Part shown: one piece after another, positions 8,547 through 33,101 of the stretch
How the letters are laid out: the number at the start of each line of letters is the position of its first letter
Position numbering within the stretch: position 1 is the first letter of the stretch
Assembly (NCBI GenBank): GCA_005778115.1
Contig: SXKJ01000462.1
Span: 1 to 33,959, forward strand
From: Planctomyces sp.
GTDB taxonomy: Bacteria > Planctomycetota > Planctomycetia > Planctomycetales > Planctomycetaceae
Reading direction: 5' to 3'
Length of the DNA stretch: 33,959 nucleotides
The notes under the pieces: model-generated
What the model was told of the DNA's origin: nothing
Databases searched by the model: none
Seen by the model: the letters and a program-made list of their open reading frames with translations, nothing else
Position numbers and translations under genes: made by a program

Positions 8547-8625
8547 GTAGGGTGGGTCGAGTCTTCGAGACCCGCCACAAACACTGAACGAATTTGGTGG
8601 GGCTCGATGACTCGACCCACCCTAC
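8547..8625. repeat. Palindromic intergenic element, family 1, copy A
   Basis: The element has perfect 17-bp inverted ends (GTAGGGTGGGTCGAGTC and its reverse complement at 8609-8625) and a partly complementary interior. It lies between the cupin and amidohydrolase genes. Related copies are at 9621-9724 and 12764-12820. Its small size and lack of a gene suggest a REP- or MITE-like element. Confidence 0.75.
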
Positions 8626-9620: not shown

Positions 9621-9724
9621 GTAGGGTGGCGTCGAGTCATCGAGACCCACCAACTGATCGGCGATTGGTCACCGAGATTGAGGAAGCATTCGTGGTGGGT
9701 CGCCTGATGGTTGACCCACCCTAC
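9621..9724. repeat. Palindromic intergenic element, family 1, copy B
   Basis: Its ends, GTAGGGTGG at 9621 and CCACCCTAC at 9716-9724, are inverted, and the inner text (TCGAGTCATCGAGACCCACCA against GGTGGGTCGCCTGATGG) matches copy A imperfectly. It occupies the gap between two converging genes (ending at 9610 and 9739), where such a hairpin could also end transcription from both sides. Confidence 0.65.
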
Positions 9725-12763: not shown

Positions 12764-12820
12764 GTAGAGACCCACCACGCACGTCGATTGTCTTGGTGGG
12801 TCTCGATGACTCGACCCTAC
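12764..12820. repeat. Palindromic intergenic element, family 1, copy C (shortened)
   Basis: GAGACCCACCA near the left end pairs with TGGTGGGTCTC toward the right, and the right end GATGACTCGACCCTAC matches copy A apart from a missing CCAC. At 57 bases it looks like an internally deleted copy. It sits between two minus-strand genes. Confidence 0.6.
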
Positions 12821-15522: not shown

Positions 15523-15565
15523 CGTGATCCTCAGAAGTGAATGCGATACGTGGCAGCGAATGAAC

Positions 15566-15646
15566 CAGGCGAGCGGGGTGGCGTCAGCCCCCCCCGGTTC
15601 GGCGGCGATTGAATCACCGGGGGGCTGAAGCCACCTCGCTCGCCTG
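15566..15646. repeat. Palindromic intergenic element, family 2, copy A
   Basis: CAGGCGAGCGGGGTGGCGTC at the left and the near-complementary right arm ending GCTCGCCTG form a long imperfect hairpin rich in G and C, with a C-run and a G-run facing one another. A second copy is at 16857-16943. It lies between two minus-strand genes. Confidence 0.75.
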
Positions 15647-16532: not shown

Positions 16533-16987
16533 GAACTAGCTCCAGGAAGGATGGGGATCGGCAAGGAGGTCATCTTCGGCAGCCTCTTCCTAACCAGCAA
16601 GCCGCACACTCTGAGAAACTTTGCGGCGATGCGATCTGTCTTCCGCGCTTCGCTGATTCGGATTGCAGTCACGACTGCGACCACCGCTCGTTGGTCTGAA
16701 AGATTTAGTACTGCGAGCGAAGTTCGACGAAAGTCCCGTGCGTTAGGCGCGGGTAGAGTTGCGACGAGGGTTTTCTACGAGGTCGAGCCTGAGGCACAGT
16801 CTCGCTGGAAGTCAGCGCCGTTGTTCGAAACTCGCCAATTTTTTGGACGTGTTTTGGCGAGCGGGGCGGCGTCAGCCCCCCGGTGTCTGCGACCAAACTA
16901 GCGTCTGCTGCCAAACCGGGGGCTGACGCCGCCCCGCTCGCCTGGATCATTTTTGGTTGCGGCCTAAGGCCGTATTAGGGACACACG
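16533..16987. other. Divergent intergenic region, 455 bases, no gene seen
   Basis: This is the gap between a minus-strand gene starting at 16532 and a plus-strand gene starting at 16988, so it should carry promoters for both directions. I could not pick out convincing -35/-10 boxes. Its right part holds the repeat element at 16857-16943. A plus-strand frame (16551-16901) has no ribosome binding site or recognisable product and was not called. Confidence 0.5.
16857..16943. repeat. Palindromic intergenic element, family 2, copy B
   Basis: The left arm GGCGAGCGGGGCGGCGTCAG and the right arm CTGACGCCGCCCCGCTCGCC are perfect complements over 20 bases, and the arms continue inward (CCCCCCGGT facing ACCGGGGG) with one extra base. 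The loop is about 30 bases. It is the more regular of the two family 2 copies. Confidence 0.8.
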
Positions 16988-18931: not shown

Positions 18932-21900
18932 ATGCGGTTAGGCTCCTGGCTGAATCGACGTTCCGCGCGGCAGGTACGTCCGAGGCGAGAGAGCCTCCGC
19001 CATCGAAGGTCAATGTCGGCCATTGAGCGCCTGGAGGATCGTCTCCAATTGACGCCGACGACTTACACAGCGACTGGCTTGCCGTTGCCTGTGCCGCCCA
19101 TCGTGTCCGGTTCCGCGAGCACGTCGGTCTCGACGATTCACGTCGCGGATGAGTTCGTGATCCAAGACGTCAACGTGCGTCTCAACATTCAGCATACCTG
19201 GGACGCGGATCTGGATGTCTTCTTGATCGCTCCCGATGGGACGCGGGTAGAATTGTTCGCGGCGATTGGCGGTAGTTTCGACAACTTCACCGCGACCACG
19301 CTCGATCAGCAGGCGGACCAATTCATCGTGAATGCGTTCGCGCCATTCACGGGAACGTTTCGGCCGAGTGGTGATCTGTCGGCGCTGAATGGCCACTCGG
19401 CACAAGGTGATTGGCAATTGGAACTCACCGATACGTTCCTGGCCGCGGACAACGGCACGCTCACCACTTGGTCTCTGGAATTGCTGACGGATGTCGAAAA
19501 CGCCGCACCGTTGACTTACTCGGCCACGGACCTGCCGCTCCGAGTCCCTCCGGTTCGGCCCAGCACCACGGTCTCGATGATTTCGGTCGCGGACGAATTC
19601 GTGGTTCAAGACGTCAATTTACAACTCACCATTGAACATACCTACGACTCGGATCTGAGAGCTGTCTTAGTCGCTCCGAATGGGACGCGCGTGACATTGT
19701 TTTCTGGAGTTGGTGGAAGTGGCGGCAACTTCATCGAGACGAACCTGGATCAGCAAGCGAGCCAGGCGATTGCCAGCGGGACGGCTCCGTTTACCGGAAC
19801 GTTTCGGCCGAGCGGTGATCTATCGACTCTGAACGGTCTGAATTCGCAAGGTATTTGGCAATTGGAAATCACCGATACCTTTCTGTCGGCGGATTCGGGC
19901 CGGCTGCTGTCTTGGTCGCTGACACTGGATGATGTTCTCCCCGATATTGTGGGCGGGACGCTGGGAACATCGGCAACCACCAATTCGCGATTGGCCTCTG
20001 GAACGATCAATACACCCTCCGATGTCGATCTCTATTCGATCAACTTGCCAGCCGGGTTGAGCGTCACGGCAAGCCTGACAGTTCCGCCGGGAAGTCAACT
20101 CGAAGGCTACTTGCGCGTGTTCGACGCGGCCGGTGTTCCCTTGGAATCCACCGGAGGCGACACGAACGGTGGGGCCACGCGGATCACATTCACTCCACAA
20201 ACGATCGGCCGCTACTACATCGGAGTCTCCAGTCTTGGGAACGAGACTTACGACCCAGTCACCGGTGCGGCCATTTCCGGTTCCACTTCAGGTGCCTTTG
20301 AATTCCGAGTGACGACGGATGCCACTCAGGACTTCACCGAGTTCCCGGCAACCAACTGGCAGACATTTGCCGAGGGTGGTACCGCATCGGTCTCAGACGA
20401 CCAAACACATGTGATCGCGGGGAACCAGTCGCTCAAGTTCGTCACCACAAGTGGCTTCGACACGGGGGTCATTCTGACAACGGGCGGTTCCGCTTGGGAT
20501 CTCTCGGATTCCGATACCTTGGAATTCTCAACCTTTGCAGAAAATCCACATCCGCTTGGGTTCCAGGGCAATCAACCAAACATTGACTTGGTGACGACCA
20601 GCGGGGTCATTCATTTGAGGCCCAATCGATTGCTGATTCGCAATCAGCAATGGCAGCAAATCAAAGTGCCCTTGGCCGGCGACTCTGTTTGGAGTTTGAC
20701 GACGGAAGGCGCTCCCGATCTCTCGGCCGTCACCAGCTTGGTGATTCATCTCGATACCTGGGATTTCGGCTTCACGGTCTATTTTGATGACGTGAAGTTC
20801 TCGGCTCGCCCCGACGTCGTCGCGGGAACAGCATCGGGAACCATCGAGACTCCGTCGGACGTGGAGTTGCTCTCGATCGACTTACCGGCCGGCTTGAGAG
20901 TCACGGCGAGTTTGGAACTCACATCGGGCAGTGACTTGGACGGCTGCTTGCGCGTGTTCGATCTAGCGGGTCATCCCTTGGACGTGAGCGAAAGTGTCAC
21001 TGCGGCGGGTCAGCCACAGGTCACCTTCTCTCCGCCGACGCAAGGACGCTACTTGGTCGGAGTCTCCAGCCTTGGCAATGAAAACTACGATCCCGTGACC
21101 GGCACGACCGTCGCAGGTTCCACCACGGGAGGATTCTTGCTGCGAGTGACCACCGATGCGGCCCAGGATGTGACCGAATCCGCGGCCAGCAACTGGCAAA
21201 CCTTTGCCTCGGACGGTAGGCCGGCATTCGTCTCTGACGATCAATCGCATGTGTTGGCAGGGAACCAGTCGCTCAAGTTTTTCACGAGAAGCGGGTTCGA
21301 CACGGGCATCGAACTCTCGACGGGCGGCTCGGTTTGGAATCTCTCGGATTACGACACCTTGGAGTTGTCGGCCTTTGCCGACAATCCGAATCCCTTTGGT
21401 TTTCAGGGAAACCAGCCGATCGTTGAGTTATTCACTCCCAGCGGCAGCCTTCGTCTGAGGCCGAACCAACTCTTCCCGCGGAACCATGAATGGCAACGGC
21501 TGCAAATCCCACTGGCTGGCGATGACGACTGGGTACGGACTTTGACGGGGACTCCCGACCTCTCCGCCGTCACTGGATTGTCGATCCAACTCGATACATG
21601 GGATACCAGTTTTACCATGTACTTCGACGGCATCCGATTCTTGAAGTCCGACGAACCTGCTCTCGATCACGCCGCGAGCCAAATGATTCCTCTTCCGGCC
21701 CCACTGGATTCGGCTGGCGCTGTCGAGTTGTCTGACACTGGAATTGCCGGCGAATACGTTCTGAATGTCGCGGGAACGGGCACGCTAACTCTTTCGCTGC
21801 TCGATTCGGAGGATCGACAATTCCTGGGAACCGTAAGCTTGCTGGCGACAGATCGGCGCGTGTTGCGTGAGCAGAACTTCGTAGACTCATCGGCCGACGA

Positions 21901-24900
21901 GCCAAGTCGGGTGGTGGAACACATCGGACCGGGGAATTATCTCGTGGTGGTCCGACCGCGTGACATCGCGAGTCTTCAAGAGCTTTCCGTCGAGGCGAAT
22001 TTCGTCACGACATCGGATCCACGTTTACCGACGTCCGTCGGTGCTTTTCCGAAGTCGGCGCTGACCGTGAATCTCAACGATGATGAGTTTCTCGATGTCG
22101 TCACGGTCAATGAGTTCTCGAATGATGTTTCCGTGCTGTTGAGCCGGGGTGATGGGACGTTTGAGTTGGAACGTCGGTTCTCAGTCGGCCTCGAACCGGT
22201 GACCGCGCAGGCCGTGAACGTGGGTGGCGATCACCATTTGGATCTCGTCACGGTCAACGAAGCCTCGAACGATGTCTCCGTGCTGTTGTGGCGAGACGGG
22301 ACGTTCCTGCCCGAACGAAGATTCGCCGTCGGCGTTGGCCCCGTCGCGCTTCGAGCCCTGGATATCGACGGCGACCTCACGCATCAGGTCGATCTGGTCG
22401 TAGCCAATCGTTTTTCCAACGACGTCTCGGTGCTCATCAACCTCGGTAACGGGATGTTCGGGGAAGAACAGCGGCTGACGGTCGGCGACAGCCCAAACTC
22501 CGTCCAAGTCTTGGATGCCAACGGGGACCAGCAACTCGACATCGTCACGGCCAATGAATTGTCGAAGGACATCTCGGTGTTGCTGGGGACAGGAGGCGGA
22601 TTATTTGAGTCGCAGCGAACATTCCCGGTCAGCGGCAATCCAACAAACGTGCAAGCCGTCGATGTCAACGGCGACCATCGGCTGGATCTGATTGCGCCGA
22701 ACCATGTGCGACTCTTCGGCGATTCTCTGAATGCCTACGAATTCAACCCGCTCTCGCTGCTGCTAGGGACGGACAATGGGAGCGTTTTCCAGTCCGAACG
22801 AAGCCTCTTTGGAGTCTTTGGACCGACGGCAGTGGAAGGCGTGACTCTGAATAGCGATCAGACGCTCGATCTTGTCGTGTCGAACGGCTTGTTTCGGTCC
22901 GTGACCGTGTTAAGCGGATTCGACGCAGATCTCTTTTACACCGGTTTCTTTCCCGTTGGCACATTTCCGACCGACCTGGGGGTCATGGATTTGGACGGCG
23001 ATCAGCTCTTGGACTTCGTGACTTCCAATGAATTCTCGAACGATGTGTCGATGGGACGGGGGTTAGGCGACGGAAGTTTTGAGGAAGAACAGAGATTTCA
23101 AGTCGGCCCGTCACCGCAAGCGGTGCAAATCATCGACATGAACGGTGACGATCGGCTGGACCTCGTGACACCGAATCTTGGCCGATACGACTATGCCACG
23201 GGCAGCTATTCGGCGGGAAGCGTTTCGGTGCTGCGAGGCAACGGCGACGGCACGTTTGCCGTTCGACGCCGTTTCAGCATCGGGGATTCTGGAATCGGCT
23301 ACATTCCCCTGTCGATGAACGCCGCCGATGTCAACGATGATGGCCGCGTCGATTTGATCGCACCGAACGGCTTCGGCAACGATGTCTCGGTGCTGTTAGG
23401 GCGCGGAGACGGAACCTTTGAGCCGCATAAGCGATTTGACGTCGGGGCGTACCCCGCGAGAGTTCAGACCGACGATTTGAATGGCGATGGACGACAAGAT
23501 CTGATTACGCAGAACTTCGCCTCGGGCGACAACTCGATTTTGATCGGCCGTGGCAACGGAACCTTTGAATTCTTTCAACGGCAAGCTCCATTGGTCGAGC
23601 TTCCCGATCCAGTGTTCTCAACGGACGTTAATGGAGACGGCGTCCTCGATCTCATTGTGGACGTCAATGGCGACGGACTCACTGACCGCATCATCCCCGA
23701 CTTTCTCGCAGGTGAGGTCGAGGTGCAGCTCGCGGACTCCGCAGGAGCGTACTCGAATGCATTGTCGGTGGCGCCGATCTCCATTGGGACACGCCCCGTC
23801 ATTGAAAATATCAACGGTGATCGGGACGCCAACGGGCAACAGATTGATGACGTGTTGGTGCTCAGCCGCGATGGCGATGTCCTCTACCGTCAGGGAATGC
23901 GCGTGGTCTCGGCCAGGAGAGTCTCGGCCGAAGAGACATCCCTGAGTGAGTTTCAGACAGCCATCGTGGTTAATGCCGGCCAACCCGCGCGTGATTTCAC
24001 GGTGCTGCGGACTTCCGAGGGAATTCAAATCGCGACGCTGGACCGCACCGGAAATTCCGTCAGCCTGTTCGAGTTTCGCGTCCCATCGCAACCGGGACGG
24101 CCGCCATCGTTTGAAAGAGTCGATACCGTGCCGATCAACGGCTCGCTGCCGGGGCGCATCGTCAGTGGTGATTTCGACCACGACCCGGCGGGTCGAGAAG
24201 ACTTCGCAGTGATCAATCAAGGCACTCAAACCATCAGCGTGTTTCTCGCGGCTGCGAACGGCTTTCAGCCAGCAGGCTCCTTGAACGCCGGAGCCGGACC
24301 TATTTCGTTGACGACGGCCGATCTGAATCGTGACGGTTGGTTGGATCTCATCGTGCCGAATCTTGGTTCTGGCGACATCAGCGTGCTGAGGAATGTCGGT
24401 AACGGACAATTCGAGCCTTCGCTGATTCGTGCCGGTGCCGGCCCGTACTTTATTGGACCCTCTCTGACGGACGCTTCGAGACTGGAAAGCCAGTCGTTTG
24501 ACGAAACTTCCAGCGCCGAAGCTGGTGACTTCAACGGCGACGGTTTCTTGGATGTGATCGCCACCAATCCCGGAAGCAACAGTTGGTCGATCGTGTTTGG
24601 AACCGATCAGGGCTTGAGTTCCGATCCGCACGTCACCTTGTTGCAGAATTCGCCTGCGCGATTCGCGGTGGTCCGAGTGGAGGACATCGATCAAGATCAC
24701 GATGACGATTCGGTGTTTCTGAACGAAGCGGGAACACAGTTGACCGTTTATCTGAATTCGAGTGACGCGAACGAGCGGCAGCCTTTGTCATTTACCCCGA
24801 CGATTGATCTGCCGACGCCGCTGACGGGATTCACGCTGCGTGACGCGAATGGCGACCACTTGCCGGACGTGTTCGCCACGAATGAGTTCGGCGACCTGCT

Positions 24901-26827
24901 GGTGTTGCTCAATCGAGGCGAAGGACGGTTCACGGAAGACCGCCACGCCGACCGCCGCACGAGCCTGGCTGTGTTGGATTTTGACTTAAACAACGATGGA
25001 CAGTTCGATGCCGTGGTGACCAATCTGGAATCCGATCAGGTCTCGATCCGGGCTGCGGGAAATGGAGCCTCCTTGGGCGATTTGGCGTCCAATGCCGGCA
25101 ACGTTACGGCACCCGGAGCACCGCAGCTTACTGACCTCAATAACGACGGAGTGGACGATCTGATCGTGCCCAATACCGGCGGCAACAGCGTGATGATTTA
25201 CCGGGGAATCGGAAATGGGACGTTCGGCCTTGGCGAAGAGATCTTCACGGGTTCGAATCCTTCGAGCGTGACGGTTAGCGATCTGGATGGCGACCCCTTT
25301 AGGGATTTGGTCGTCACCAACCGCGGCTCCAACTCCGTAGCGGTGTTCTATGGGCAACCGTTTGCCGATTTTCAAACGGTGCCGGGAGTGACTTCGATTC
25401 CCTTCCGAGCCGGTGCCCTCTCGAAACTGCCCTCCGGTTCTGGCCCCGTGGACGCTCAAGTGGTCACCCTGCGCGATCCCGTTGATGGCACCATGCAGAC
25501 CGGTTTGGTCGTGACCAACGGCACGAACGATTCGGTGTCGTTCATCCCGAGCGCCGGCAACGGCATCTTCGATGCGAGGCCGTCCAATACGGTGATGTTG
25601 AACTTCTCGCCGTTGCCGGGTGCGATCGTGAATAACATGCTGGTGTTGCCGAATCCCGACGGAAGCAATCTGGGATTTCTCTCTCTGTCGGCGGGCAACT
25701 TTAGGGACGTGCCGCCGGTGATTTCCTATTCGGTAGGTCTGCAGAGTCAACCGGTCGGTATTGACGCGAGCGCCCACCTCAACGACGACGCTTTCCTCGA
25801 TCTCGTCGTGCTCCTCGCGGCCGACAATGGGGCCTCATCGGTGTCGCTGTTGTTGGGAGACGGTAACGGCTTTGATTTCTCCGGTTCGTTTTTCCTCGAC
25901 GGGATTACTCAGGCCAGCGACTTGCAAGTGGCTGGAATGAACTTGTACGTCACCGAGGAAGGTCGAGACTTCTTCACGGTCTTCGATCTGGCCGACCTGC
26001 AACGCGAACACGGGGACGTGATTCTCGACTTCGCGGAGATTTCCGGCGGATTCGGGAACAGCGTGGCGGGTACGAATCGTCCGATTTTCGGCGTCGGCCC
26101 GTTTAGTCCTCTGCTCCTGGCGTTGTTCGGCGCGTTGCCCTCGGACGACCAACAGGAACGTGGTGCGACAAACCTCGACGACCAGCCTGCGAGTTGGCAG
26201 ACCTTGGTCTCAATGGTCACACAAGTGATGCAGAAGTTGGACGGGTTCACGAATGACCTTGGCAACAGCTTACTGGTTTCGGCGTTGACGACGATCAGCA
26301 CAGACTTGGGGCTGCTCAAGCTGAGTCAATCCGACACTCTGCGGACGAGCGTTCAAGCAGTAGTCACATCGCTGAGTTTGCTGCCGGGAACACAGCCGGT
26401 GACGCAGGTGCTTCGCGGACTCCGCAGTCTGCGACTCACTCGGCCCAATGCGCCTGCCAGTCGTCCGTCAGGCTCCGCGACGCCACCTGCCGTCAAGCCC
26501 CCCGTCACGGTTCCGATAAAAGCGGCTCTCGACCAGTCCTCGGCAGTCTCCACGAACGATCAAGCCGAGCTGGCGAATTACCTCGGCCAGCTCGTCACCG
26601 ACAACAAACTGGCGAGCGAGTTATTCGATCACGGTTCGCGATCGTCGGAGTCCGTGTTCTTGAAAACGGCCGATGAGGAACTGAGCTACGTGGTTCCCGG
26701 TTGGCCGATGTTCGCGGGGAATGGATTGGTCGCATCCGCCGTCGCGAAATTCAGTCCGCGTCCATTGCGACAACGCCATTCGCCACACAGAAATGCTCGA
26801 CGGATCGAGCGGGACATCGCCGATTGA
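18932..26827 (+). CDS. Giant exported FG-GAP/VCBS repeat protein with tandem P-domains
   Basis: The 2631-residue protein begins with an arginine-rich leader and ERLEDRLQL (about 32-40), a variant of the planctomycete LEPR-type motif found at the start of giant exported proteins. Two proprotein-convertase P-like domains follow in tandem (about 46-187 and 193-331). Next comes a two-fold repeat of a pre-peptidase C-terminal-like domain plus a jelly-roll, carbohydrate-binding-like domain (341-624 and 628-906), then a spacer. Roughly 20 FG-GAP/VCBS propeller repeats run from about 1030 to 2345, with cores such as NDVSVLLSRGDGTFE and calcium-loop text DVNGDGLTD. The last 285 residues are more helical. 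No catalytic domain is visible, so it is probably a surface binding or adhesion protein. The P-domains here lie at the N-terminus without a protease, which is unusual. It heads an operon with a kinase 58 bases downstream. Confidence 0.85.
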   Translation: MRLGSWLNRRSARQVRPRRESLRHRRSMSAIERLEDRLQLTPTTYTATGLPLPVPPIVSGSASTSVSTIHVADEFVIQDVNVRLNIQHTWDADLDVFLIAPDGTRVELFAAIGGSFDNFTATTLDQQADQFIVNAFAPFTGTFRPSGDLSALNGHSAQGDWQLELTDTFLAADNGTLTTWSLELLTDVENAAPLTYSATDLPLRVPPVRPSTTVSMISVADEFVVQDVNLQLTIEHTYDSDLRAVLVAPNGTRVTLFSGVGGSGGNFIETNLDQQASQAIASGTAPFTGTFRPSGDLSTLNGLNSQGIWQLEITDTFLSADSGRLLSWSLTLDDVLPDIVGGTLGTSATTNSRLASGTINTPSDVDLYSINLPAGLSVTASLTVPPGSQLEGYLRVFDAAGVPLESTGGDTNGGATRITFTPQTIGRYYIGVSSLGNETYDPVTGAAISGSTSGAFEFRVTTDATQDFTEFPATNWQTFAEGGTASVSDDQTHVIAGNQSLKFVTTSGFDTGVILTTGGSAWDLSDSDTLEFSTFAENPHPLGFQGNQPNIDLVTTSGVIHLRPNRLLIRNQQWQQIKVPLAGDSVWSLTTEGAPDLSAVTSLVIHLDTWDFGFTVYFDDVKFSARPDVVAGTASGTIETPSDVELLSIDLPAGLRVTASLELTSGSDLDGCLRVFDLAGHPLDVSESVTAAGQPQVTFSPPTQGRYLVGVSSLGNENYDPVTGTTVAGSTTGGFLLRVTTDAAQDVTESAASNWQTFASDGRPAFVSDDQSHVLAGNQSLKFFTRSGFDTGIELSTGGSVWNLSDYDTLELSAFADNPNPFGFQGNQPIVELFTPSGSLRLRPNQLFPRNHEWQRLQIPLAGDDDWVRTLTGTPDLSAVTGLSIQLDTWDTSFTMYFDGIRFLKSDEPALDHAASQMIPLPAPLDSAGAVELSDTGIAGEYVLNVAGTGTLTLSLLDSEDRQFLGTVSLLATDRRVLREQNFVDSSADEPSRVVEHIGPGNYLVVVRPRDIASLQELSVEANFVTTSDPRLPTSVGAFPKSALTVNLNDDEFLDVVTVNEFSNDVSVLLSRGDGTFELERRFSVGLEPVTAQAVNVGGDHHLDLVTVNEASNDVSVLLWRDGTFLPERRFAVGVGPVALRALDIDGDLTHQVDLVVANRFSNDVSVLINLGNGMFGEEQRLTVGDSPNSVQVLDANGDQQLDIVTANELSKDISVLLGTGGGLFESQRTFPVSGNPTNVQAVDVNGDHRLDLIAPNHVRLFGDSLNAYEFNPLSLLLGTDNGSVFQSERSLFGVFGPTAVEGVTLNSDQTLDLVVSNGLFRSVTVLSGFDADLFYTGFFPVGTFPTDLGVMDLDGDQLLDFVTSNEFSNDVSMGRGLGDGSFEEEQRFQVGPSPQAVQIIDMNGDDRLDLVTPNLGRYDYATGSYSAGSVSVLRGNGDGTFAVRRRFSIGDSGIGYIPLSMNAADVNDDGRVDLIAPNGFGNDVSVLLGRGDGTFEPHKRFDVGAYPARVQTDDLNGDGRQDLITQNFASGDNSILIGRGNGTFEFFQRQAPLVELPDPVFSTDVNGDGVLDLIVDVNGDGLTDRIIPDFLAGEVEVQLADSAGAYSNALSVAPISIGTRPVIENINGDRDANGQQIDDVLVLSRDGDVLYRQGMRVVSARRVSAEETSLSEFQTAIVVNAGQPARDFTVLRTSEGIQIATLDRTGNSVSLFEFRVPSQPGRPPSFERVDTVPINGSLPGRIVSGDFDHDPAGREDFAVINQGTQTISVFLAAANGFQPAGSLNAGAGPISLTTADLNRDGWLDLIVPNLGSGDISVLRNVGNGQFEPSLIRAGAGPYFIGPSLTDASRLESQSFDETSSAEAGDFNGDGFLDVIATNPGSNSWSIVFGTDQGLSSDPHVTLLQNSPARFAVVRVEDIDQDHDDDSVFLNEAGTQLTVYLNSSDANERQPLSFTPTIDLPTPLTGFTLRDANGDHLPDVFATNEFGDLLVLLNRGEGRFTEDRHADRRTSLAVLDFDLNNDGQFDAVVTNLESDQVSIRAAGNGASLGDLASNAGNVTAPGAPQLTDLNNDGVDDLIVPNTGGNSVMIYRGIGNGTFGLGEEIFTGSNPSSVTVSDLDGDPFRDLVVTNRGSNSVAVFYGQPFADFQTVPGVTSIPFRAGALSKLPSGSGPVDAQVVTLRDPVDGTMQTGLVVTNGTNDSVSFIPSAGNGIFDARPSNTVMLNFSPLPGAIVNNMLVLPNPDGSNLGFLSLSAGNFRDVPPVISYSVGLQSQPVGIDASAHLNDDAFLDLVVLLAADNGASSVSLLLGDGNGFDFSGSFFLDGITQASDLQVAGMNLYVTEEGRDFFTVFDLADLQREHGDVILDFAEISGGFGNSVAGTNRPIFGVGPFSPLLLALFGALPSDDQQERGATNLDDQPASWQTLVSMVTQVMQKLDGFTNDLGNSLLVSALTTISTDLGLLKLSQSDTLRTSVQAVVTSLSLLPGTQPVTQVLRGLRSLRLTRPNAPASRPSGSATPPAVKPPVTVPIKAALDQSSAVSTNDQAELANYLGQLVTDNKLASELFDHGSRSSESVFLKTADEELSYVVPGWPMFAGNGLVASAVAKFSPRPLRQRHSPHRNARRIERDIAD

Positions 26828-26885
26828 ATGCGGCGAGATCATTGGAATTCAGCCGCTCAGGACGTCCCCTTTGGAAAGAACTTGG

Positions 26886-28853
26886 ATGAGCATCAACAAT
26901 CCGGAACCTCAGCAGACTCAGGTCGACAGCTCGAATCCCAGTACCGCCGTGACTGGCGGGGTGTCGGCACAGGGGTACTCCAAGACGGACCAGGTCAATC
27001 AAAGCAATGAAACCCAAATGGAGAGTTCCGGCGATTCCAAAGAGCTGAACCTGACGCAACCCTTTGAGGATGGCCTGGAGATTACCTCGTTGCGTTTTCC
27101 GGTCCCGGACCTGGCCGCCGGTCAGGTCTTCGGACGCTATCGAATCGAATGCGAACTTGGCCGGGGCGGCATGGGGGCCGTCTATCGGGCGCATGATCTC
27201 CACTTGCATCGCACCGTGGCCTTGAAGATCCCGATCTTCAAACGCAAAGCCTCCACGGACATTGTCCGGAGGTTTCTCCGAGAGGCCCGTGCCGTTGCAC
27301 GATTGTCACACCCGAATCTGTGCCGTGTCTTTGATGTCGGCGTGATTGATGGAATGCTGTTCCTCACGATGGAGTTCATCGAAGGCCGCTCGCTGGAGCA
27401 ACTCTTTGAATCAGGCCAGGCGATGCCCGAAGCCGAGGTGATCGCCGTGATTCGGCAATCCGCGCTGGCGCTGCAAGAGGCGCATGACTGCGGCATCATC
27501 CACCGTGACATCAAGCCGGCGAACATCATGCTCACCACGAAAGGCCAAGCCATCCTGATGGATTTTGGACTGGCTCGGCAGGTCACTGGCGTCAACGGCG
27601 AAGAAAACGAGGTCACGAAGGACGGAACGTTCCTGGGGACTCCCGCCTACATGTCTCCCGAACAGATTCGTGGAATCTCTCGCGAAATTGGACCGGCCAC
27701 GGATATCTATAGCCTGGGGGTCGTGATGTATCGGCTCTTGAGTGGACGACGTCCGTTCGAGGGAACCTTTACCGCGATCGTGGCGGTCATCTCTACAAAG
27801 ACTCCCCGCGCGCTGCGAGAACATCGCGACCAGATATCGCCAGCCATCGAAGCAATCTGCCTGAAAGCGATGGCCAAGGAGCCGGCCGATCGGTTTTCAT
27901 TCGCCAAGGACATGGCGCTCGCCTTGGACGAGATGCCGACAGCCACGTTTTGCTCGCCAGAAGAATTCTGCTCCGAGATCAATGAGGAAACCATTGAGTC
28001 GGAGAATGCACCAGTCGCGCGAATTGAGTCGCCGATCGAGTCAGTCGCCGGCAAGTTGGAACGACGGAGCAATCTCCCCCCCATCGTCGGCACGATGGCA
28101 GTGGCGGCGATCGTGCTCGGCGTGGCGTGGCTGAATCGTAGTGGGAACGCAACGACATCCCCGCAATCAGAAGTCGCGCCGCCTTCAGTTGGTCAGACCA
28201 ACGAAGCTGACATCGGCACAGCACTGGTTGCCGGCAAACATGTTCCTCCGCAAAGCGATGACACTGCCGAACAGCCGAAGGTGAAACCGGGCACCGCGGT
28301 TCCGATCCTCGAAACTCATCTTCAACGAGCCAACCAGTTGCAGGGCTATGAAGTCTTGAGCCAGAAGTCTCTACCGTTGCGCGCTCACGATAAATTGCAA
28401 TTTCATGTGAAGCTAAGCGCCACGAGTTACGTCTACCTCTATTTGATCGACACGAACGGCGTCCCAGAACGCCTTTGGCCGAAGTCCTCTGAAGACCTGG
28501 ACCAGCAACAGCCGGTCGCGGAACTTTGGGCACCGCCGCTCGCTTCCGAAGGACAGAAACAAGCGATGTATTTCCTGGATGAACTCAAAGGCCGCGAGAC
28601 CGTCTTGGTGACGACGTCGCAACGGCCGCTGAGCCACGCGGAGCTGCAAACCGTCGAGTCGGTACGGCTGAAGCTGGGACCGATTGAGGAGGGCCAGCCA
28701 ACACTCGTGTCGTTTCGGCGCGCGGAGAAAGAACGGGGGATCGGTGGGATTGTCGAAACCGATAAGGCGCTGCCGGTCGAGATCGACCGGTTCACCGAGC
28801 AGCTCAGCCGAGTCTTCGATGGTTATACCGGGATTGTCTTTCCTCACGAGTGA
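26886..28853 (+). CDS. Transmembrane Ser/Thr protein kinase with DUF4384-like C-terminal domain
   Basis: The 655-residue protein starts at the ATG at 26886, with GGAAAG upstream; the open frame begins earlier, inside the previous gene. After an acidic, Gln/Ser-rich leader, the kinase domain spans about 86-350: glycine loop ELGRGGMG near 90-97, ATP lysine K114 (VALK), catalytic loop HRDIKPAN (H206 to N213) with D208, DFG at 226-228, and GTPAYMSPEQ. All key residues are present, so it should be active. A single membrane helix (IVGTMAVAAIVLGVAWL, about 400-416) puts the remaining 240 residues outside. That part (HVKLSATSYVYLYLID, RLWPKS, GRETVLVTTSQRPL) resembles DUF4384, a sensor-like domain common beside CHAT proteases. 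Near the end lies RGIGGIVETDK, a short repeat shared with the next gene. It is probably translated together with the CHAT gene that starts 6 bases after its stop. Confidence 0.9.
   Translation: MSINNPEPQQTQVDSSNPSTAVTGGVSAQGYSKTDQVNQSNETQMESSGDSKELNLTQPFEDGLEITSLRFPVPDLAAGQVFGRYRIECELGRGGMGAVYRAHDLHLHRTVALKIPIFKRKASTDIVRRFLREARAVARLSHPNLCRVFDVGVIDGMLFLTMEFIEGRSLEQLFESGQAMPEAEVIAVIRQSALALQEAHDCGIIHRDIKPANIMLTTKGQAILMDFGLARQVTGVNGEENEVTKDGTFLGTPAYMSPEQIRGISREIGPATDIYSLGVVMYRLLSGRRPFEGTFTAIVAVISTKTPRALREHRDQISPAIEAICLKAMAKEPADRFSFAKDMALALDEMPTATFCSPEEFCSEINEETIESENAPVARIESPIESVAGKLERRSNLPPIVGTMAVAAIVLGVAWLNRSGNATTSPQSEVAPPSVGQTNEADIGTALVAGKHVPPQSDDTAEQPKVKPGTAVPILETHLQRANQLQGYEVLSQKSLPLRAHDKLQFHVKLSATSYVYLYLIDTNGVPERLWPKSSEDLDQQQPVAELWAPPLASEGQKQAMYFLDELKGRETVLVTTSQRPLSHAELQTVESVRLKLGPIEEGQPTLVSFRRAEKERGIGGIVETDKALPVEIDRFTEQLSRVFDGYTGIVFPHE
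28734..28780 (+). repeat. Coding-embedded short repeat, copy 1 (in the kinase gene)
   Basis: This in-frame segment encodes RGIGGIVETDK. At the DNA level it resembles copies at 31863-31910 and 32022-32072 in the protease gene (roughly three quarters identical over the first 36 bases, by eye). It lies in the C-terminal part of the kinase, between the DUF4384-like region and the last helix. Confidence 0.6.
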
Positions 28854-28859
28854 CGTCTG

Positions 28860-31800
28860 ATGCGTTCAATCACACTCACCCGCAGAGCAAGTTTTGTTGT
28901 TGCGGTGTCTTCAGCCGCGAAGCGGCGACGGAGTTTAGCCGGGGGTGTAAACTCCCGGCTTCGTGACAAACAGTGCAATCAAGCCCCGGAGGGGCGACGC
29001 TTGGATTTACGCATTGAGGCGAGCGTCGCCCTTTCAAGGCTTTCGATCCTAGACCTCTTTTCCGTGGGCTTGCGCCCACGGCTCAACTCCGTCGCCACTT
29101 CGTGGCGAGCGAAAAGCGCAACATCACAACTTGCATTTCGGGTGATTGTGCAGAGCGTGGCATTATGCGGAGCATCCCTGCTTTTGATTTTGGCCAGCGT
29201 GTCGGCTATCGCTCAAGAACGTGGTCGGGATTTGCTCGCGGCCGAAGAGTTGTTTCGGCGCGGAGCCTGGGCACAGGCGGAAGACAAGTTCGCTCTGGTT
29301 TTGGCGAGCACCACTCAAGGGGCATCATCCGATGAGAAGGTTCGGTTGCGGCGGCGATGTTTGCTCATGCTTTCCGAGTCGTGCCGACGTCTCGGACGGC
29401 ATTCGGAAGCGTTGGGATTTGCTCTGCAATACCGCGACGATCTCAAAGAGGAGCGGAACGCTGAGTTTGCGGACATCTTGCAGCAGAACGCGATCGGCAT
29501 CGCTGAAAGTCAGATGGCCTTGGCCGATTTTTCGGAGGCAAGGGCCACACTGGAAGAGCTGTTGGCGAATCGCTTCGCAAAGCTCAAGGACTTCCGAAAG
29601 TTGCAGGTGCTCGTGAGCTTGGCGACGGTCGAACATTTGACCGATCGCGCACAACCAGCGACCGATCACTGGAGCCAGGCGGACGCGCTCGGACGTGAGT
29701 TCCTCAAACGATTTGAAAGAAGTCTTTCGCCCGATGAAGGAGTTTCTGTCATCTTGCGGCTGGTCGAATGCCAAGAGGCTCTTGATCGAACGGCTCCGGC
29801 AGATCAGATGTTCGAATCATTGCAACAAAAACTCTCGCGATTGCCGGATGGAAAGCCGCGTCAACTTCGGGCGTTGCTGGAGTTGGGAACACATGCTTCA
29901 TTGAGGAAAGATTTCCCGCGTGCCGAAAAGCATTTTTGGCAAGCACTCGAATTCTCTGTGCCCGAAGAGAATCCGCGCGGGGCTGCGCAGATCCATCAAC
30001 TCTTGGCCAACGCTTACCGCGAACAGCAACTTCGAGACAAAGCCCAAGCGGAACTCGCGGCAGCGGCCGAGTGTTTGCAGCGGGTCATTGCCGCAGCCAA
30101 ATCTGACGCGACGTCGGCCGGGGCAGCACCGGGTGATTTGAAACAGCTTCGGAATCTGTATCAACAACTTGGCCGCATTCCAGAAGCCATCTCCATCGGC
30201 GAGCAACTGTTGCAGATTCAGTCCGCCGAGTTGGGACCAACTCATCCACTCGTGATGGAGTCGAGTTCTATGCTTGGCGGCTTGTACGCCGCGTTGGGCC
30301 AGTATGGTCGAGCGAAGCCGTTGTTGCGCGCGGTGGTGAATCACTTTCGCCAGTTGGAGAAGTCTCCGACGTCGCTTGCTCGTGCGCTCAACAATCTGGG
30401 AGCGGTCGAGCGCGGTGTCGGCGAGTTCGCGCTGGCGACTGAATCGTTTGGTGAGGCTCTCCGACTTCGCGAGAAGCACTTGGCGTCTGACGATCCGGAA
30501 TTGGCGACGTCCTACAACAATCTTGCCAGCGTCTGTCTGGTCCAGGGGCAATTCAAGCGGGCCATTCAGTTGTACCAGCAGGTTCTGGAACGCTGCCGTG
30601 AACGGGGACCGCGAGCCAATGGACTGCAAAGCGTGACGCTCCTGAATCTCGCGATGGCTTATAAGTCACAGGGGCAGTTTGAGCGTGCGGCCGAACTCTG
30701 CCAGGAGTCGCTGCGGTTGCTGGAAGAGTCGGCCGGCCGAGAGACGATGGCATCGGTGGGCCACTACAACGCTCTGGCCACGATGGCTCGTGGGCAAGGA
30801 CGCTATGCCGAGTCGTATCGGTGGGCTACGAAGTCGTTGGCGGTGTGTGCGACGCATCATCAGGAAGACCATCTCGCCGCCGCTGCCGCTCATACTCAGA
30901 TCGGGATTGTGGCATGCATGGGCCGGGCCTTTGAAACGGCTGAGTCACATTGGCAACAGGCACTGCGCATTCAACGTGCTAATCAGCAGACAGCTTCCGT
31001 CGCGTTTACGCTCAACATGCTGGGGTTGCTGGCCTACCAGCAGGATCGCTTTGCGGACGCCCAGCAGTTCTTCGAGAACGCACGGCAACTCCACGAGGAC
31101 GTCGAGGTCGCTCCACAAGACCGATACAACACGCTCTGCAATCTGGCGGCCGTTTATCGGAAGGCAGGACGAACAGCAGAGGCTCTTGCCGCTCTGCGCC
31201 AGGCGATCGCGATCCCCGAAGCGTTCCGCTCCGAGACGTTCGGCGAAGCGGAGCAAGGCCGTGCGAAGTTTCTGGCTCAGTTTGCGTCCGCGTTCGACAT
31301 GCAGGTGCAATGGCTGCTCGAAGACAAGGACTACGACGCCGCGTTTGTCGCCGCCGAACAGAGCCGCAATCGCACCTTCCTGGATCAACTGAACTTGGCT
31401 GGTGTGGACGTGCGCAAGACGCTGCCCGACGAGGCGGCCAAACGGCTGTTGCCTCGCGAACAAGAACTGCGACTGCAACTTCAACGCCTGCGAGTTCAAG
31501 CCAAGCTGTTGCCGGAACACTCGAACCAATCCGCCGAATGGCAAAGCCTGACGCGCGAACTCAATCAAGCTCAATCCGCGTATGCCCAAACCTGGAGCGA
31601 GATCCGCGATTCCAGTCAGGTCTATTCCAAACTGCTCACTCAAGAGCGGAAGGTTTGGACGCTCGACCAAATTCGCCGTGAGGTCATTGCGCCCGACACG
31701 TTGGTTCTGTTCTATCACCTGGGAGCACAACAGAGCGTGGTGCTGGTCATTGGCGACCAAACGAAAGCCGTGGTCGCGGTGCCCTTGGAGGTGACCTCCG

Positions 31801-33101
31801 AGCAAGCGACGCTGCTTCCCGATTTGCCGCAACTCCGCGGTGCCGCAAATGCGCTGGCTCAACGCGGCATCGGCGGCACCGTCGAGACAGACAAGGGCAA
31901 AACGATTGAAGCCGATAAGGAGCAGACCGAAGTCACAGCGGGGCCGTTGACTCGGCGGAAAGGGGCGGACATCGTCGCCTGGCATCGCCAAGTGCTGCGT
32001 CAGAAACAGTTCGATCCCACACGCGGAATCGGTGGCACCGTCGAGACCACGAAGGGGACCGCCGTCCCGACGACCTCCTTCATCGCCGTGGCCGACATTT
32101 TGTTTCCCGAACAACTCCGCAAAGTGATCCGCGAACGTCGGCCGAAGAGGTTGGTCATCATTCCTGACGGAGCGTTGCACAATCTCCCGTTTGAAGCGTT
32201 GCTGGTCCGCGACGGCGACTCGCCCCGATTCGTGCTCGATGAGTTTCCGCCGATTGCATACGCCCCGTCGGCCAACATCCTGGTGAATCTGATTCGACGC
32301 TCCGCTTCATCACCAGAGAGCCGTCGCAGTTTGCTGACGTTGGGGAATCCTCAATACCGGTTGCAGACCAGCATCGCCAAGACTGAGGCAGAGTCGAATT
32401 CGGAAACACCCAACACCGTGGGGACAGCGGTCGTCTCCGCAGACCGAGGTGGTGAGCTGACCCGCGACATGATGTATGGCCTACACGGCTCGTTGCCACC
32501 GCTGCCGGAGACGGCGCGTGAGTGTGCGCGATTGGCCGAATGCTTTGAACGCCGCGGCATGACGGTGAAAACATTGTTGGAGACCAATGCCACGGAACAG
32601 CAATTCACGGAAAGTGTGCGCGGTCGCGGCCTCGTGCATCTGGCTGCTCACGGACTCGTGGATGAGCGATATGGCAATCTCTTCGGAGCCATCGCGCTGA
32701 CGCCACCGACCGAGATGGCACTGGCCGAACACAACGATGGGCTGTTGTCCTACAACGAGATTCTGCAGTTGCCGCTCGCGGACTGCGAGTTGGCCGTGTT
32801 GAGTGCCTGTCAAACCAACGTCGGTCCCGATCGCCCGTTGGAAGCAGGATCGACGTTGGCACAAGCCTTCCTGGCCGCCGGCGCGCGTCGAGTGGTCGCC
32901 AGTCATTGGAGCGTTTCCGATGCCTCCACGGCTGAGCTGATCGCGAGCTTCTTTGAACTCATCGCCGAGGACTTGGCCAAGACCGATCAACTGGGCGCGG
33001 CGGCGTCTCTGCACGCAGCCAAGTTGAAAATCCGCAACGATCCGCGCTGGCAAGCCCCGTACTACTGGGCTTCCTTCGTCCTGCTCGGTCCGAGCGATTG
33101 A
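28860..33101 (+). CDS. TPR-CHAT caspase-like protease, probably exported
   Basis: The frame of 1413 residues starts at an ATG 6 bases after the kinase stop, suggesting translational coupling. A GTG at 29142 is an alternative start. Residues 1-94 read as hairpin-repeat DNA in frame (28914-29107). A signal peptide (VALCGASLLLILASVSAIAQ) then ends near 119. About ten TPR units cover 121-830, with text such as YNNLASVCLVQGQFKRAIQL, and may bind a partner. A helical linker leads to the CHAT domain (about 945-1410). Its catalytic histidine is H1264 in HLAAHG and its cysteine is C1317 in VLSACQT; the GARRVVASHWSVSD text near the end is also typical, so the dyad is intact. Two copies of the RGIGGTVET repeat are inserted early in the CHAT domain. 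CHAT enzymes cut specific partner proteins; the target here is unknown. Confidence 0.9.
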   Translation: MRSITLTRRASFVVAVSSAAKRRRSLAGGVNSRLRDKQCNQAPEGRRLDLRIEASVALSRLSILDLFSVGLRPRLNSVATSWRAKSATSQLAFRVIVQSVALCGASLLLILASVSAIAQERGRDLLAAEELFRRGAWAQAEDKFALVLASTTQGASSDEKVRLRRRCLLMLSESCRRLGRHSEALGFALQYRDDLKEERNAEFADILQQNAIGIAESQMALADFSEARATLEELLANRFAKLKDFRKLQVLVSLATVEHLTDRAQPATDHWSQADALGREFLKRFERSLSPDEGVSVILRLVECQEALDRTAPADQMFESLQQKLSRLPDGKPRQLRALLELGTHASLRKDFPRAEKHFWQALEFSVPEENPRGAAQIHQLLANAYREQQLRDKAQAELAAAAECLQRVIAAAKSDATSAGAAPGDLKQLRNLYQQLGRIPEAISIGEQLLQIQSAELGPTHPLVMESSSMLGGLYAALGQYGRAKPLLRAVVNHFRQLEKSPTSLARALNNLGAVERGVGEFALATESFGEALRLREKHLASDDPELATSYNNLASVCLVQGQFKRAIQLYQQVLERCRERGPRANGLQSVTLLNLAMAYKSQGQFERAAELCQESLRLLEESAGRETMASVGHYNALATMARGQGRYAESYRWATKSLAVCATHHQEDHLAAAAAHTQIGIVACMGRAFETAESHWQQALRIQRANQQTASVAFTLNMLGLLAYQQDRFADAQQFFENARQLHEDVEVAPQDRYNTLCNLAAVYRKAGRTAEALAALRQAIAIPEAFRSETFGEAEQGRAKFLAQFASAFDMQVQWLLEDKDYDAAFVAAEQSRNRTFLDQLNLAGVDVRKTLPDEAAKRLLPREQELRLQLQRLRVQAKLLPEHSNQSAEWQSLTRELNQAQSAYAQTWSEIRDSSQVYSKLLTQERKVWTLDQIRREVIAPDTLVLFYHLGAQQSVVLVIGDQTKAVVAVPLEVTSEQATLLPDLPQLRGAANALAQRGIGGTVETDKGKTIEADKEQTEVTAGPLTRRKGADIVAWHRQVLRQKQFDPTRGIGGTVETTKGTAVPTTSFIAVADILFPEQLRKVIRERRPKRLVIIPDGALHNLPFEALLVRDGDSPRFVLDEFPPIAYAPSANILVNLIRRSASSPESRRSLLTLGNPQYRLQTSIAKTEAESNSETPNTVGTAVVSADRGGELTRDMMYGLHGSLPPLPETARECARLAECFERRGMTVKTLLETNATEQQFTESVRGRGLVHLAAHGLVDERYGNLFGAIALTPPTEMALAEHNDGLLSYNEILQLPLADCELAVLSACQTNVGPDRPLEAGSTLAQAFLAAGARRVVASHWSVSDASTAELIASFFELIAEDLAKTDQLGAAASLHAAKLKIRNDPRWQAPYYWASFVLLGPSD
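28914..29107 (+). repeat. Run of five palindromic hairpin modules in the 5' end of the CHAT gene
   Basis: The modules are GCCGC-GAA-GCGGC (28914-28926), AGCCGGG with CCCGGCT (28937-28960), GCCCC-GGA-GGGGC (28983-28995), CCGTGGGC-TTGC-GCCCACGG (29062-29081) and CGCCAC-TTC-GTGGCG (29093-29107). They resemble intergenic repeats of planctomycetes but here lie inside an open frame, between the start codon and the signal peptide. No stop codon is produced in the coding frame. Confidence 0.75.
31863..31910 (+). repeat. Coding-embedded short repeat, copy 2 (CHAT gene)
   Basis: Encodes RGIGGTVETDKGKTIE in frame, early in the CHAT domain. It is the copy nearest to 32022-32072, with 111 bases between them. 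The following text, EADKEQTE, may be a decayed partial duplicate of its end. Confidence 0.6.
32022..32072 (+). repeat. Coding-embedded short repeat, copy 3 (CHAT gene)
   Basis: Encodes RGIGGTVETTKGTAVPT in frame, directly before the text SFIAVADILFPEQLRK of the CHAT fold. It is the longest copy. The ending GTAVP also appears, without the first half, as PGTAVPILE in the kinase (near 28290) and as TVGTAVVSA at about 32415 in this gene, which may be decayed fragments. Confidence 0.6.

Follow-up and report, generated by a model that had tools for sequence, protein, structure and literature searches.

Among caspase-like proteases, separase cuts itself at sites resembling those of its substrate, and gingipain R (RgpB), a secreted protease of another family, is extracytoplasmic; we know of no kinase partner for gingipain R. 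The Ser/Thr kinase PknB has a one-pass membrane layout. Ser/Thr kinases, caspase-like proteases and giant surface proteins of unknown roles are numerous in planctomycetes. We analysed a planctomycete locus that encodes these three kinds of protein side by side, on contig SXKJ01000462.1 of Planctomyces sp. (assembly GCA_005778115.1). The window, that is the whole stretch of DNA analysed, is this complete contig of 33,959 nucleotides (C452; the genome comprises 7.43 Mb on 515 contigs), and its plus strand carries in order the genes of a giant ectodomain protein (gene 1), a membrane Ser/Thr kinase with a DUF4384 outer domain (gene 2) and a TPR-CHAT protease predicted to be exported (gene 3). We found that a short peptide starting with Arg occurs once in the outer domain of the kinase and twice in the linker of the protease, and that its version changes in step in the two proteins from lineage to lineage.

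The protease was nearest in predicted structure to Craspase (best Foldseek match to the CHAT model, 7y8t, E 3.3e-11), and like the TPR-CHAT protein of Craspase (Csx29) it unites TPR, CHAT and a His-Cys dyad in one protein. In passages of PMC9729208, the Craspase protease and its substrate Csx30 are encoded together in type III-E CRISPR systems; the cut in Csx30 is placed at residues 427-429 in those of PMC10028731, and PMC9729208 cites L407. The same passages describe Craspase as activated by RNA, whereas the protease of the window has a signal peptide, stands beside a membrane kinase and has a motif in common with it; a copy of the Csx30 site within the protease is not mentioned in them. A Pfam scan of 12 window proteins returned no annotation of gRAMP/Cas7-11 or Csx30, for which no dedicated search was made. 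The fold of the CHAT model is also like that of separase (5fc2, E 9.9e-11), which according to the passages of PMC9729208 cuts after Arg in EXXR and holds this P1 Arg by an Asp equivalent to K670 in Craspase. The separase motif lies upstream of the cut, whereas the covariation described here lies downstream of Arg, and the Asp is not evident in the window CHAT. Among solved structures, the best sequence match of the CHAT profile was DdvA (8rot and 8rw5, E 5.3e-13), by its entry titles a transmembrane anti-sigma factor with a CHAT domain; here the output domain is a kinase, and domain searches found no anti-sigma domain in the three proteins (P0001-P0003). Gingipain R, Arg-specific by its PDB title, shares the caspase-like fold and was a weaker match (1cvr, E 7e-7). 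The Ser/Thr kinase domain is like that of PknB-type PASTA kinases (NF033483, 292 bits, under the 450-bit cut-off), but Pfam found no PASTA domain in the window kinase, which is not assigned to the PASTA kinases and has instead a DUF4384 outer domain with the shared motif. A literature search, with most subscription papers out of reach, found no published account of this module.

In the window the motif reads RGIGG(T/I)VETxK. The kinase copy, RGIGGIVETDK (28734-28766, + strand; R672 of P0002), begins 39 residues from the C-terminus, and the protease copies, RGIGGTVETDK (copy 1, 31863-31895, +; R1002 of P0003) and RGIGGTVETTK (copy 2, 32022-32054, +; R1055 of P0003), lie 53 residues apart in the linker before PDGALH. 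A degenerate DNA pattern of the motif occurred at exactly three places in the 7.43 Mb, all in the kinase/CHAT pair, and its reversed control at none. When a looser pattern was applied to six genus genomes, we found the same three places in the own genome (G000), two in G004 (both in CHAT), four in G008 (three in the pair and one elsewhere) and none in G002, G003 and G010. The kinase copy agrees with CHAT copy 1 at 10 of 11 residues, seven of which are written with different codons, and the shared motif therefore does not stem from recent DNA copying.

A protease search of 59 genomes, the own one included, returned relatives in several genera and families. The profile of the CHAT region (A1, 15 rows) was searched in 397 genomes of the class and matched 45 of them at E 1e-55; one or two matches of at least 390 bits were held by 32 genomes, at 33 places, and in a sample of 392 genomes from the phylum no genome but the own one had a match of at least 390 bits. 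The 39 CHAT genes compared here are these 33 places and six others (G002, G005, G006, G009 and two of G008); seven of their loci are cut off by a contig edge (G002, the second G008 CHAT, G491, G529, G616, G682 and G705). The results showed that a kinase gene is linked to CHAT in 28 of the 32 loci of this CHAT subfamily with a usable flank. It stands directly upstream of CHAT in 21 loci (for G008 only the outer part is on the contig); among these, G654 has about 0.4 kb between the kinase and the CHAT ORF, G522 about 1 kb and G586, where CHAT is frame-broken, about 1.6 kb. It lies 4.6-4.7 kb upstream in G034, G722 and G608 and downstream in G742, is fused to CHAT in G685, shares one ORF with the ectodomain in G654:C206, is found in broken frames in G669, and is not next door in four of the 32 loci (G023, G047, G657 and G662). 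The order ectodomain protein, kinase, CHAT is kept in 19 loci with separate genes, the window included, and in two with a fusion. A natural fusion of kinase and CHAT occurs in G685 (L133, 2790-8693, minus strand), and one in G654:C206 (L136, 5089-13773, plus strand, 2895 aa) runs from a LEPR-like start through an ectodomain, a transmembrane segment, a kinase and a second transmembrane segment to DUF4384. An earlier sequence-only reading of the window had made its proposal of a joint system depend on other planctomycete genomes keeping the three genes together, and they do: the three families are a conserved unit. Because of this synteny and the covariation of the motif, the gene trio is more than chance.

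Kinase and CHAT carry matching versions of the motif in other lineages, such as RAPVGVV in the kinase and RAPVGTV in the CHAT of G039, RGLVYKK and RGLVYKS in G056, RGLGSNPV and RGLGSDPV in G755, RGTVKRLK and RGQVRRLK in G742, and RGLYIDV in the outer domain and RGLVIDV in the CHAT part of the G685 fusion. For kinases unlinked to CHAT, the version of the own CHAT was expected before the search, which covered DUF4384 in 12 genomes. The kinase of G023, on another contig, has RSLGQAVPVPKG and the CHAT RGLGEAVPVPKG; two kinases of G662, likewise on other contigs, have REPTGMVSSQKGG and REPLDIVESEKGE and the CHAT REVVGTDSTKRG and REVVGTEQTERGG, with R-E in all; RGVVVKK in the kinase faces RGVAVRA in the CHAT of G047, and RGVAVKR, in a kinase cut by the contig end, faces RGIAVKA in G616. 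Ten of the genomes held 18 DUF4384 places, seven of which are an outer domain of this kind (>100 bits), three are stand-alone proteins and eight are other proteins (<40 bits or no match).

The agreement was also evaluated by a motif-blind test, in which the best ungapped 12-mer between the last 95 residues of the partner and the CHAT linker was scored for 15 representatives. True pairs reached 483, compared with a permutation mean of 348 (standard deviation 18, maximum 459), and none of 100000 permutations was as high. Nine of the 39 CHATs were left out (G002, G008b, G491, G529, G608, G657, G669, G682 and G705); two of these loci were read later and not added to the test, giving RGMSW in G608 and RGAIIKK in G669, where the stretch aligned to copy 1 is not in frame. 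The control consisted of 207 open reading frames (ORFs) of at least 250 aa in these loci that are neither CHAT nor kinase, a set that includes the partner genes and one G008 kinase fragment. We found that 14 of 29 kinase or DUF4384 C-termini scored above the 95th percentile of the control, as against 9 of the 207 control ORFs, and that the last 62 residues contain RG[ILVFM] in 22 of the 29 and in 22 of the 207. It is very probable that the shared motif couples CHAT and kinase.

The covariation was then resolved by position, using 12 representatives with copy 1 and 14 with copy 2, the Arg positions having been set by eye. Comparison of true with permuted pairs gave z values of -1.4 to 2.1 before Arg (positions -8 to -1; the 2.1 at -3 of copy 1) and of 2.5 to 3.8 after it (+1 to +6); copy 2 also gave 3.4 at +7, and the values at +10 were 3.6 and 2.5. 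Because no clear covariation stands upstream of Arg, whereas it is clear at +1 to +6, the aligned sequences place the beginning of the motif at Arg. This Arg is one of only four invariant columns in 17 kinase outer domains; all 39 aligned CHATs have it at copy 2, with Gly as the next residue in 34. In AlphaFold2 models the copies fall in segments of low confidence, as judged by the predicted local distance difference test (pLDDT). The CHAT-region model has five segments with pLDDT below 50, among them 69-97, which holds copy 1 (78-88), and 125-142, which holds copy 2 (131-141). The outer-domain model (mean pLDDT 83.4) falls below 50 only at 7-11 and at 160-172, and the motif (162-172) lies in the latter, its sole internal segment of this kind.

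By hydropathy, one transmembrane segment (28077-28133, +) separates the kinase domain of the window from its outer domain, and in each of the 26 kinases whose kinase domain was detected a hydrophobic segment separates that domain from the motif. On this topology we rejected the idea that the kinase phosphorylates the motif. A hydrophobic peak near the start was found in 29 of 30 CHAT ORFs of at least 1200 aa, the exception being a fused CHAT. Hydropathy and the G685 fusion of kinase and CHAT, read by eye, agree with the earlier proposal that the kinase's outer domain shares one side of the membrane with the protease, and the motif and the protease should thus meet on the same outer side. The CHAT gene of G002:C9 (L039) is the sole one of the 39 without the catalytic Cys, having Gly instead; it also has no copy 1 and reads R-S at copy 2. 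The outer-domain profile, 5 of whose 17 rows come from the genomes searched, was present in 8 of 12 genus genomes, the same eight that have an intact CHAT. It gave no match in G002, nor in G003, G010 and G011, which are without a CHAT of this kind, and in seven other genomes of the family only a weak match (G015, 30 bits). The joint loss of Cys, motifs and kinase outer domain in G002 is suggestive only.

We propose that the locus is a transmembrane signalling module. The anchored ectodomain protein would sense or bind something outside; the kinase would have its catalytic domain in the cytoplasm and its DUF4384 domain outside, and the exported TPR-CHAT protease would be on the outer side too. 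Protease and outer domain would be coupled by the short peptide R-[G/A/S/E]-hydrophobic-x-x-x-x, of which the outer domain has one copy, in a flexible loop, and CHAT normally two, in flexible linkers. This peptide is most likely a processing site between R and G: active CHAT would cut its own linker at two copies and the outer domain of the kinase at the third, changing the kinase output, and recognition, or the function of the freed N-terminus, would reside in the approximately seven residues after Arg. Taken as a whole, processing between R and G that couples extracytoplasmic proteolysis to kinase signalling is our best explanation, and we give it even chances; the same balance applies to cleavage at this bond as the means of coupling. 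We infer the cleavage itself, the action of CHAT at the motif and the resulting change in kinase activity. The idea of a regulated proteolysis unit, raised by the sequence-only reading, remains the best one, with the protease and the kinase as its targets.

The kinase output may be a sigma factor, and a candidate is the extracytoplasmic function (ECF) sigma factor gene (PF07638) that is divergent from the ectodomain gene in G007 (L042, 11358-12242). Among nine other window proteins scanned with Pfam there was no ECF sigma factor. Similar sigma factor genes were seen by eye in G005 and G006 (L043 and L045).

The analysis names three residues for cutting or binding, kinase R672 and CHAT R1002 and R1055. 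The versions of the motif found in nature together map the specificity of an extracytoplasmic CHAT protease, should it act there, and they point to the partner kinase even when it is on another contig. If the proteolysis is true, a bacterial receptor kinase would be controlled by a caspase-like protease via a site copied from the protease itself.

Several observations weigh against this explanation. Caspase-like proteases mostly read the upstream side of the cut. The position of separase D2151/K670 counts to Ala here, by alignment with no superposition; an invariant Asp (D430 of A1) lies four residues before it. The placement of Arg by eye may itself favour true pairs downstream. In the motif-blind test only 10 of the 30 pairs had the own linker in first place, three of the 15 representatives (G586, G566 and G654b) had a best 12-mer other than the motif, and Gemmata-type pairs were weak. 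No such motif stands at the kinase end in G034, G722 and G608, where a separate DUF4384 protein has the weaker RGMSW; in G558, G755, G654b and G742 CHAT has just one recognisable copy; and no partner was found in G657, whose three DUF4384 matches are not of this kind. The joint loss comes from one metagenome-assembled genome (MAG), G002, with a contig that starts inside the CHAT gene. At L150 (G647:C40), of another subfamily, a DUF4384 kinase adjoins CHAT with RG[ILVFM] in neither the kinase nor the CHAT-linker place, and the pairing of kinase and CHAT therefore does not always bring the motif. Finally, given covariation downstream of Arg, a docking peptide explains the data nearly as well, and better in this respect.

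Such docking without cleavage would make the motif a short linear ligand, anchored by Arg in one pocket, which might lie in the TPR region or close to the active site of CHAT. The copies of CHAT would occupy the pocket and hold the protease off, and the kinase copy would compete and switch the protease on. TPR domains often bind peptides, the covariation downstream of Arg is what a ligand would show, and the copies lie in low-confidence, probably exposed loops. However, docking alone does not predict the loss of the motif in the CHAT without Cys, which the absence of the kinase there could explain too, and most copies have a small residue next after Arg (at copy 2 it is G in 34 of 39), as suits a scissile bond. 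We regard docking as possible and somewhat unlikely. A zymogen-like circuit is a slightly more doubtful elaboration of the processing reading: CHAT would cut after the fixed Arg twice in itself and once in the kinase, and the three freed N-termini would bind one pocket. We hold with similar reserve that the shared, lineage-specific N-termini of such a circuit would be identical self-made ligands for mutual recognition, re-tuned in each lineage.

The sequence-only reading had also suggested a module that senses, processes or sheds the giant protein. In this explanation the protease would process or shed the giant surface protein and the kinase would report on it, as the conserved neighbourhood of the three genes and the ectodomain gene directly before CHAT in G034, G722 and G608 might suggest. 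However, no mark of the giant protein as a substrate was found, and it is kinase and CHAT that carry the covarying motif. In 10 partner ectodomain proteins scanned there was no clear copy of it. The nearest were RGIGNGTF (around residue 2091) and RGLGDGSF (around 1376) within FG-GAP repeats of the window protein, of which only the first residues match the motif and which were not listed for the G004 partner; RGLRSLRL, near the C-terminus of both FG-GAP proteins, is without a match in CHAT. Furthermore, the partner ectodomains carry unrelated domains, and the fusion of ectodomain and kinase in G654:C206 suggests a sensor, not a substrate. Processing or shedding of the giant protein is thus improbable.

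Much less probable still is an immunity or cell-suicide module, with CHAT as a death protease released on detection of a phage or rival. CHAT proteases act in Craspase (PMC9729208 and PMC10028731) and are named among conflict-system effectors (PMC10907252), in each case in passages of these papers, and the ectodomains are variable. However, the signal peptide would put CHAT outside the cytoplasm, PADLOC gave kinase-type matches (25 of 34 listed), a TPR match and one weak match to the CHAT end that do not make up the set of a system, and no defence genes were seen by eye beside the module in the loci read, where no systematic search was made. That the shared motif is an accident, left by an inserted repeat element or by gene conversion between the two genes, can hardly be maintained on a multicopy repeat in the locus and 36-nt direct repeats at the motif, since the pattern occurs nowhere else in the genome, seven of ten shared residues differ in codon, and true pairs agree over unrelated versions in many genera, also between genes on different contigs. 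A mobile in-frame repeat as the source of RGIGG was rejected, the pattern being confined to the kinase/CHAT pair.

As the sequence-only reading had listed them, three ORFs are present on the plus strand, at 18932-26827 (2631 aa), 26721-28853 and 28860-33101. The 58-base gap between gene 1 and the kinase gene holds, with the kinase start set at ATG 26886 by comparison with a 76% identical relative in G004. The start ATG 28860 and the six-base gap to the kinase gene had to be given up for the protease. A multicopy, partly palindromic repeat, recognised by genome matches and probably non-coding, occupies this site between the two genes (28871-29150, no strand), and the first approximately 95 codons from ATG 28860 traverse it. 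The repeat has nine matches in the own genome, two of them at this place (the query itself and a reverse copy), and its 280 bases also match their own reverse strand at 66%. The alignment with the two closest relatives of the protease (90% and 80% identity) begins no earlier than residue 101 or 102, and directly after the repeat GTG codons at 29142 and 29148 stand at a signal-peptide-like stretch. The repeat, the alignment limits of the relatives and this stretch with its GTG codons place the protease start downstream of 28860, probably at GTG 29142, which would make the spacing of the genes about 290 bases. Promoter and terminator scans of the locus gave no more than shuffled sequence. Further partial copies of the repeat were seen on contigs C412, C140, C281, C46, C471 and C304.

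From its likely GTG start, gene 3 extends over 29142-33101 (+), as supported by domain search, comparison and hydropathy. It begins with the signal-peptide-like stretch (29142-29213, +; hydropathy, no dedicated predictor), in line with the signal peptide noted earlier, though downstream of the ORF start then assumed. The approximate TPR region (30138-31229, +; Pfam and relatives) is followed by the linker with the two motif copies and by the CHAT catalytic core (32088-33089, +), CHAT (PF12770) being found at 188.2 bits (E 2.9e-55), above the cut-off of 24. The catalytic residues, His 1264 (32649-32651, +) and Cys 1317 (32808-32810, +), were located by sequence and alignment, and the dyad is kept in 38 of 39 aligned CHATs; the intact dyad reported before is in place, and proteolytic activity is a prediction. 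Partial CHAT copies, 80-87% identical to the window protease and some with stops, were seen in G004:C6, G001:C200 and G002:C65, and G005:C110 (L050) has, within 20 kb, three long ORFs and one short piece of CHAT as well as a caspase-like protein recognised by eye.

Gene 2 (26886-28853, +) encodes a Ser/Thr kinase whose Pkinase domain (E 1.1e-48) covers residues 140-395 of P0002 (27138-27905, +); the motifs GRGGMG, VALKI, HRDIKPANIM and DFG are all there, and the complete set of catalytic residues claimed for it was found. The DUF4384 outer domain (28380-28628, +) had been called DUF4384-like from the letters alone; PF14326 reached 27.2 bits with in-frame neighbours, against a cut-off of 27, but 22.1 bits for the protein alone, and up to 52.6 bits in relatives. 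The outer-domain fold had no PDB match at E 0.001.

Gene 1 (18932-26827, +), assigned by domain search and conserved order, encodes FG-GAP repeats (E 4.6e-76), two proprotein-convertase P domains and two PPC stretches by Pfam. Near its N-terminus is LEDRLQL (19031-19051, +), found by reading the sequence, which we take to be a variant of the LEPRxLL motif; no NCBIfam or Pfam model matched. A weak hydrophobic stretch (26690-26743, +) lies before the basic tail at the C-terminus, with a peak hydropathy of 0.99, the weakest among intact partners. Nineteen loci have a separate adjacent kinase with an ORF upstream of it; this ORF is ectodomain-like in all and mostly ends in a hydrophobic segment and basic tail. 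G586 is frame-broken, and G566 and G685 have tails without a net basic charge. The N-terminus lies within the stretch in 15 of the 19 partners, 14 of which have a LEPR-like motif, the window's own being the variant LEDR. When motif and C-terminus were tested automatically, 17 of the 207 ORFs passed, and 16 of these adjoin a kinase or CHAT, two of them (G608 and G630) on a doubtful N-terminal match. Among six partners scanned, the ectodomains were unrelated, with calcium-binding RTX-type repeats in G039, repeats of the bacterial cadherin/Ig type in G034, a Calx-beta domain in G755, a dockerin domain in G558 and no recognised domain in G056 and G001. Within L036-L055, the window FG-GAP protein matched only the G004 partner, plus a short match in L055. 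Because the ectodomains vary between lineages, FG-GAP is not a defining feature of the module. In our reading, gene 1 encodes a sensor subunit that is anchored next to the kinase.

Other CHAT and DUF4384 loci were also inspected. In four Acidobacteria-type MAG loci (L166, L170, L175 and L185), a separate DUF4384 protein over the cut-off has RGLGL about 39 residues from its end, and the CHATs have RGLG[ILV] in the linker and RGLG in another loop and in the TPR part; the upstream kinase, where on the contig, is without such an end motif. The pairing of DUF4384 and CHAT via an RG peptide may be older than this module, and it is not universal. Other CHAT subfamilies were rejected as motif carriers, since among 17 loci (L137-L153, CHAT score at most 345) only L144 has RG[ILVFM] at the linker place; a kinase match is held only by L146 and L150 of these. 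At L202 (Planctomycetaceae SZUA-33), a CHAT of another subfamily overlaps a kinase with TRGLKLK, and the sole RG[ILVFM] in the last 650 residues of this CHAT is RGLGG near the C-terminus. Other DUF4384 proteins, not of the A2 kind, at L239, L248 and L250 (G657 and G669) have LRGPVAVE, LRGFVRDE or LRGTFGEV about 40-50 residues before the stop.

Elsewhere in the window, near-identical GC-rich inverted and direct repeats (GGCGAGCGGGG...GTCAGCCCCC) lie about 1.3 kb apart at 15559-15644 and 16856-16951, and a second repeat family at 8547-8625, 9626-9653 and 12793-12820 consists of a hairpin and dispersed copies with GACTCGACCC. After the protease gene, from about 33587, another protein starts with a LEPRLLM motif and is open at the contig end. 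On the minus strand, 233-4315 encodes a possibly defence-related protein of 1360 aa that combines AAA_11/AAA_12 helicase parts with an MTES_1575 nuclease domain at its C-terminus.

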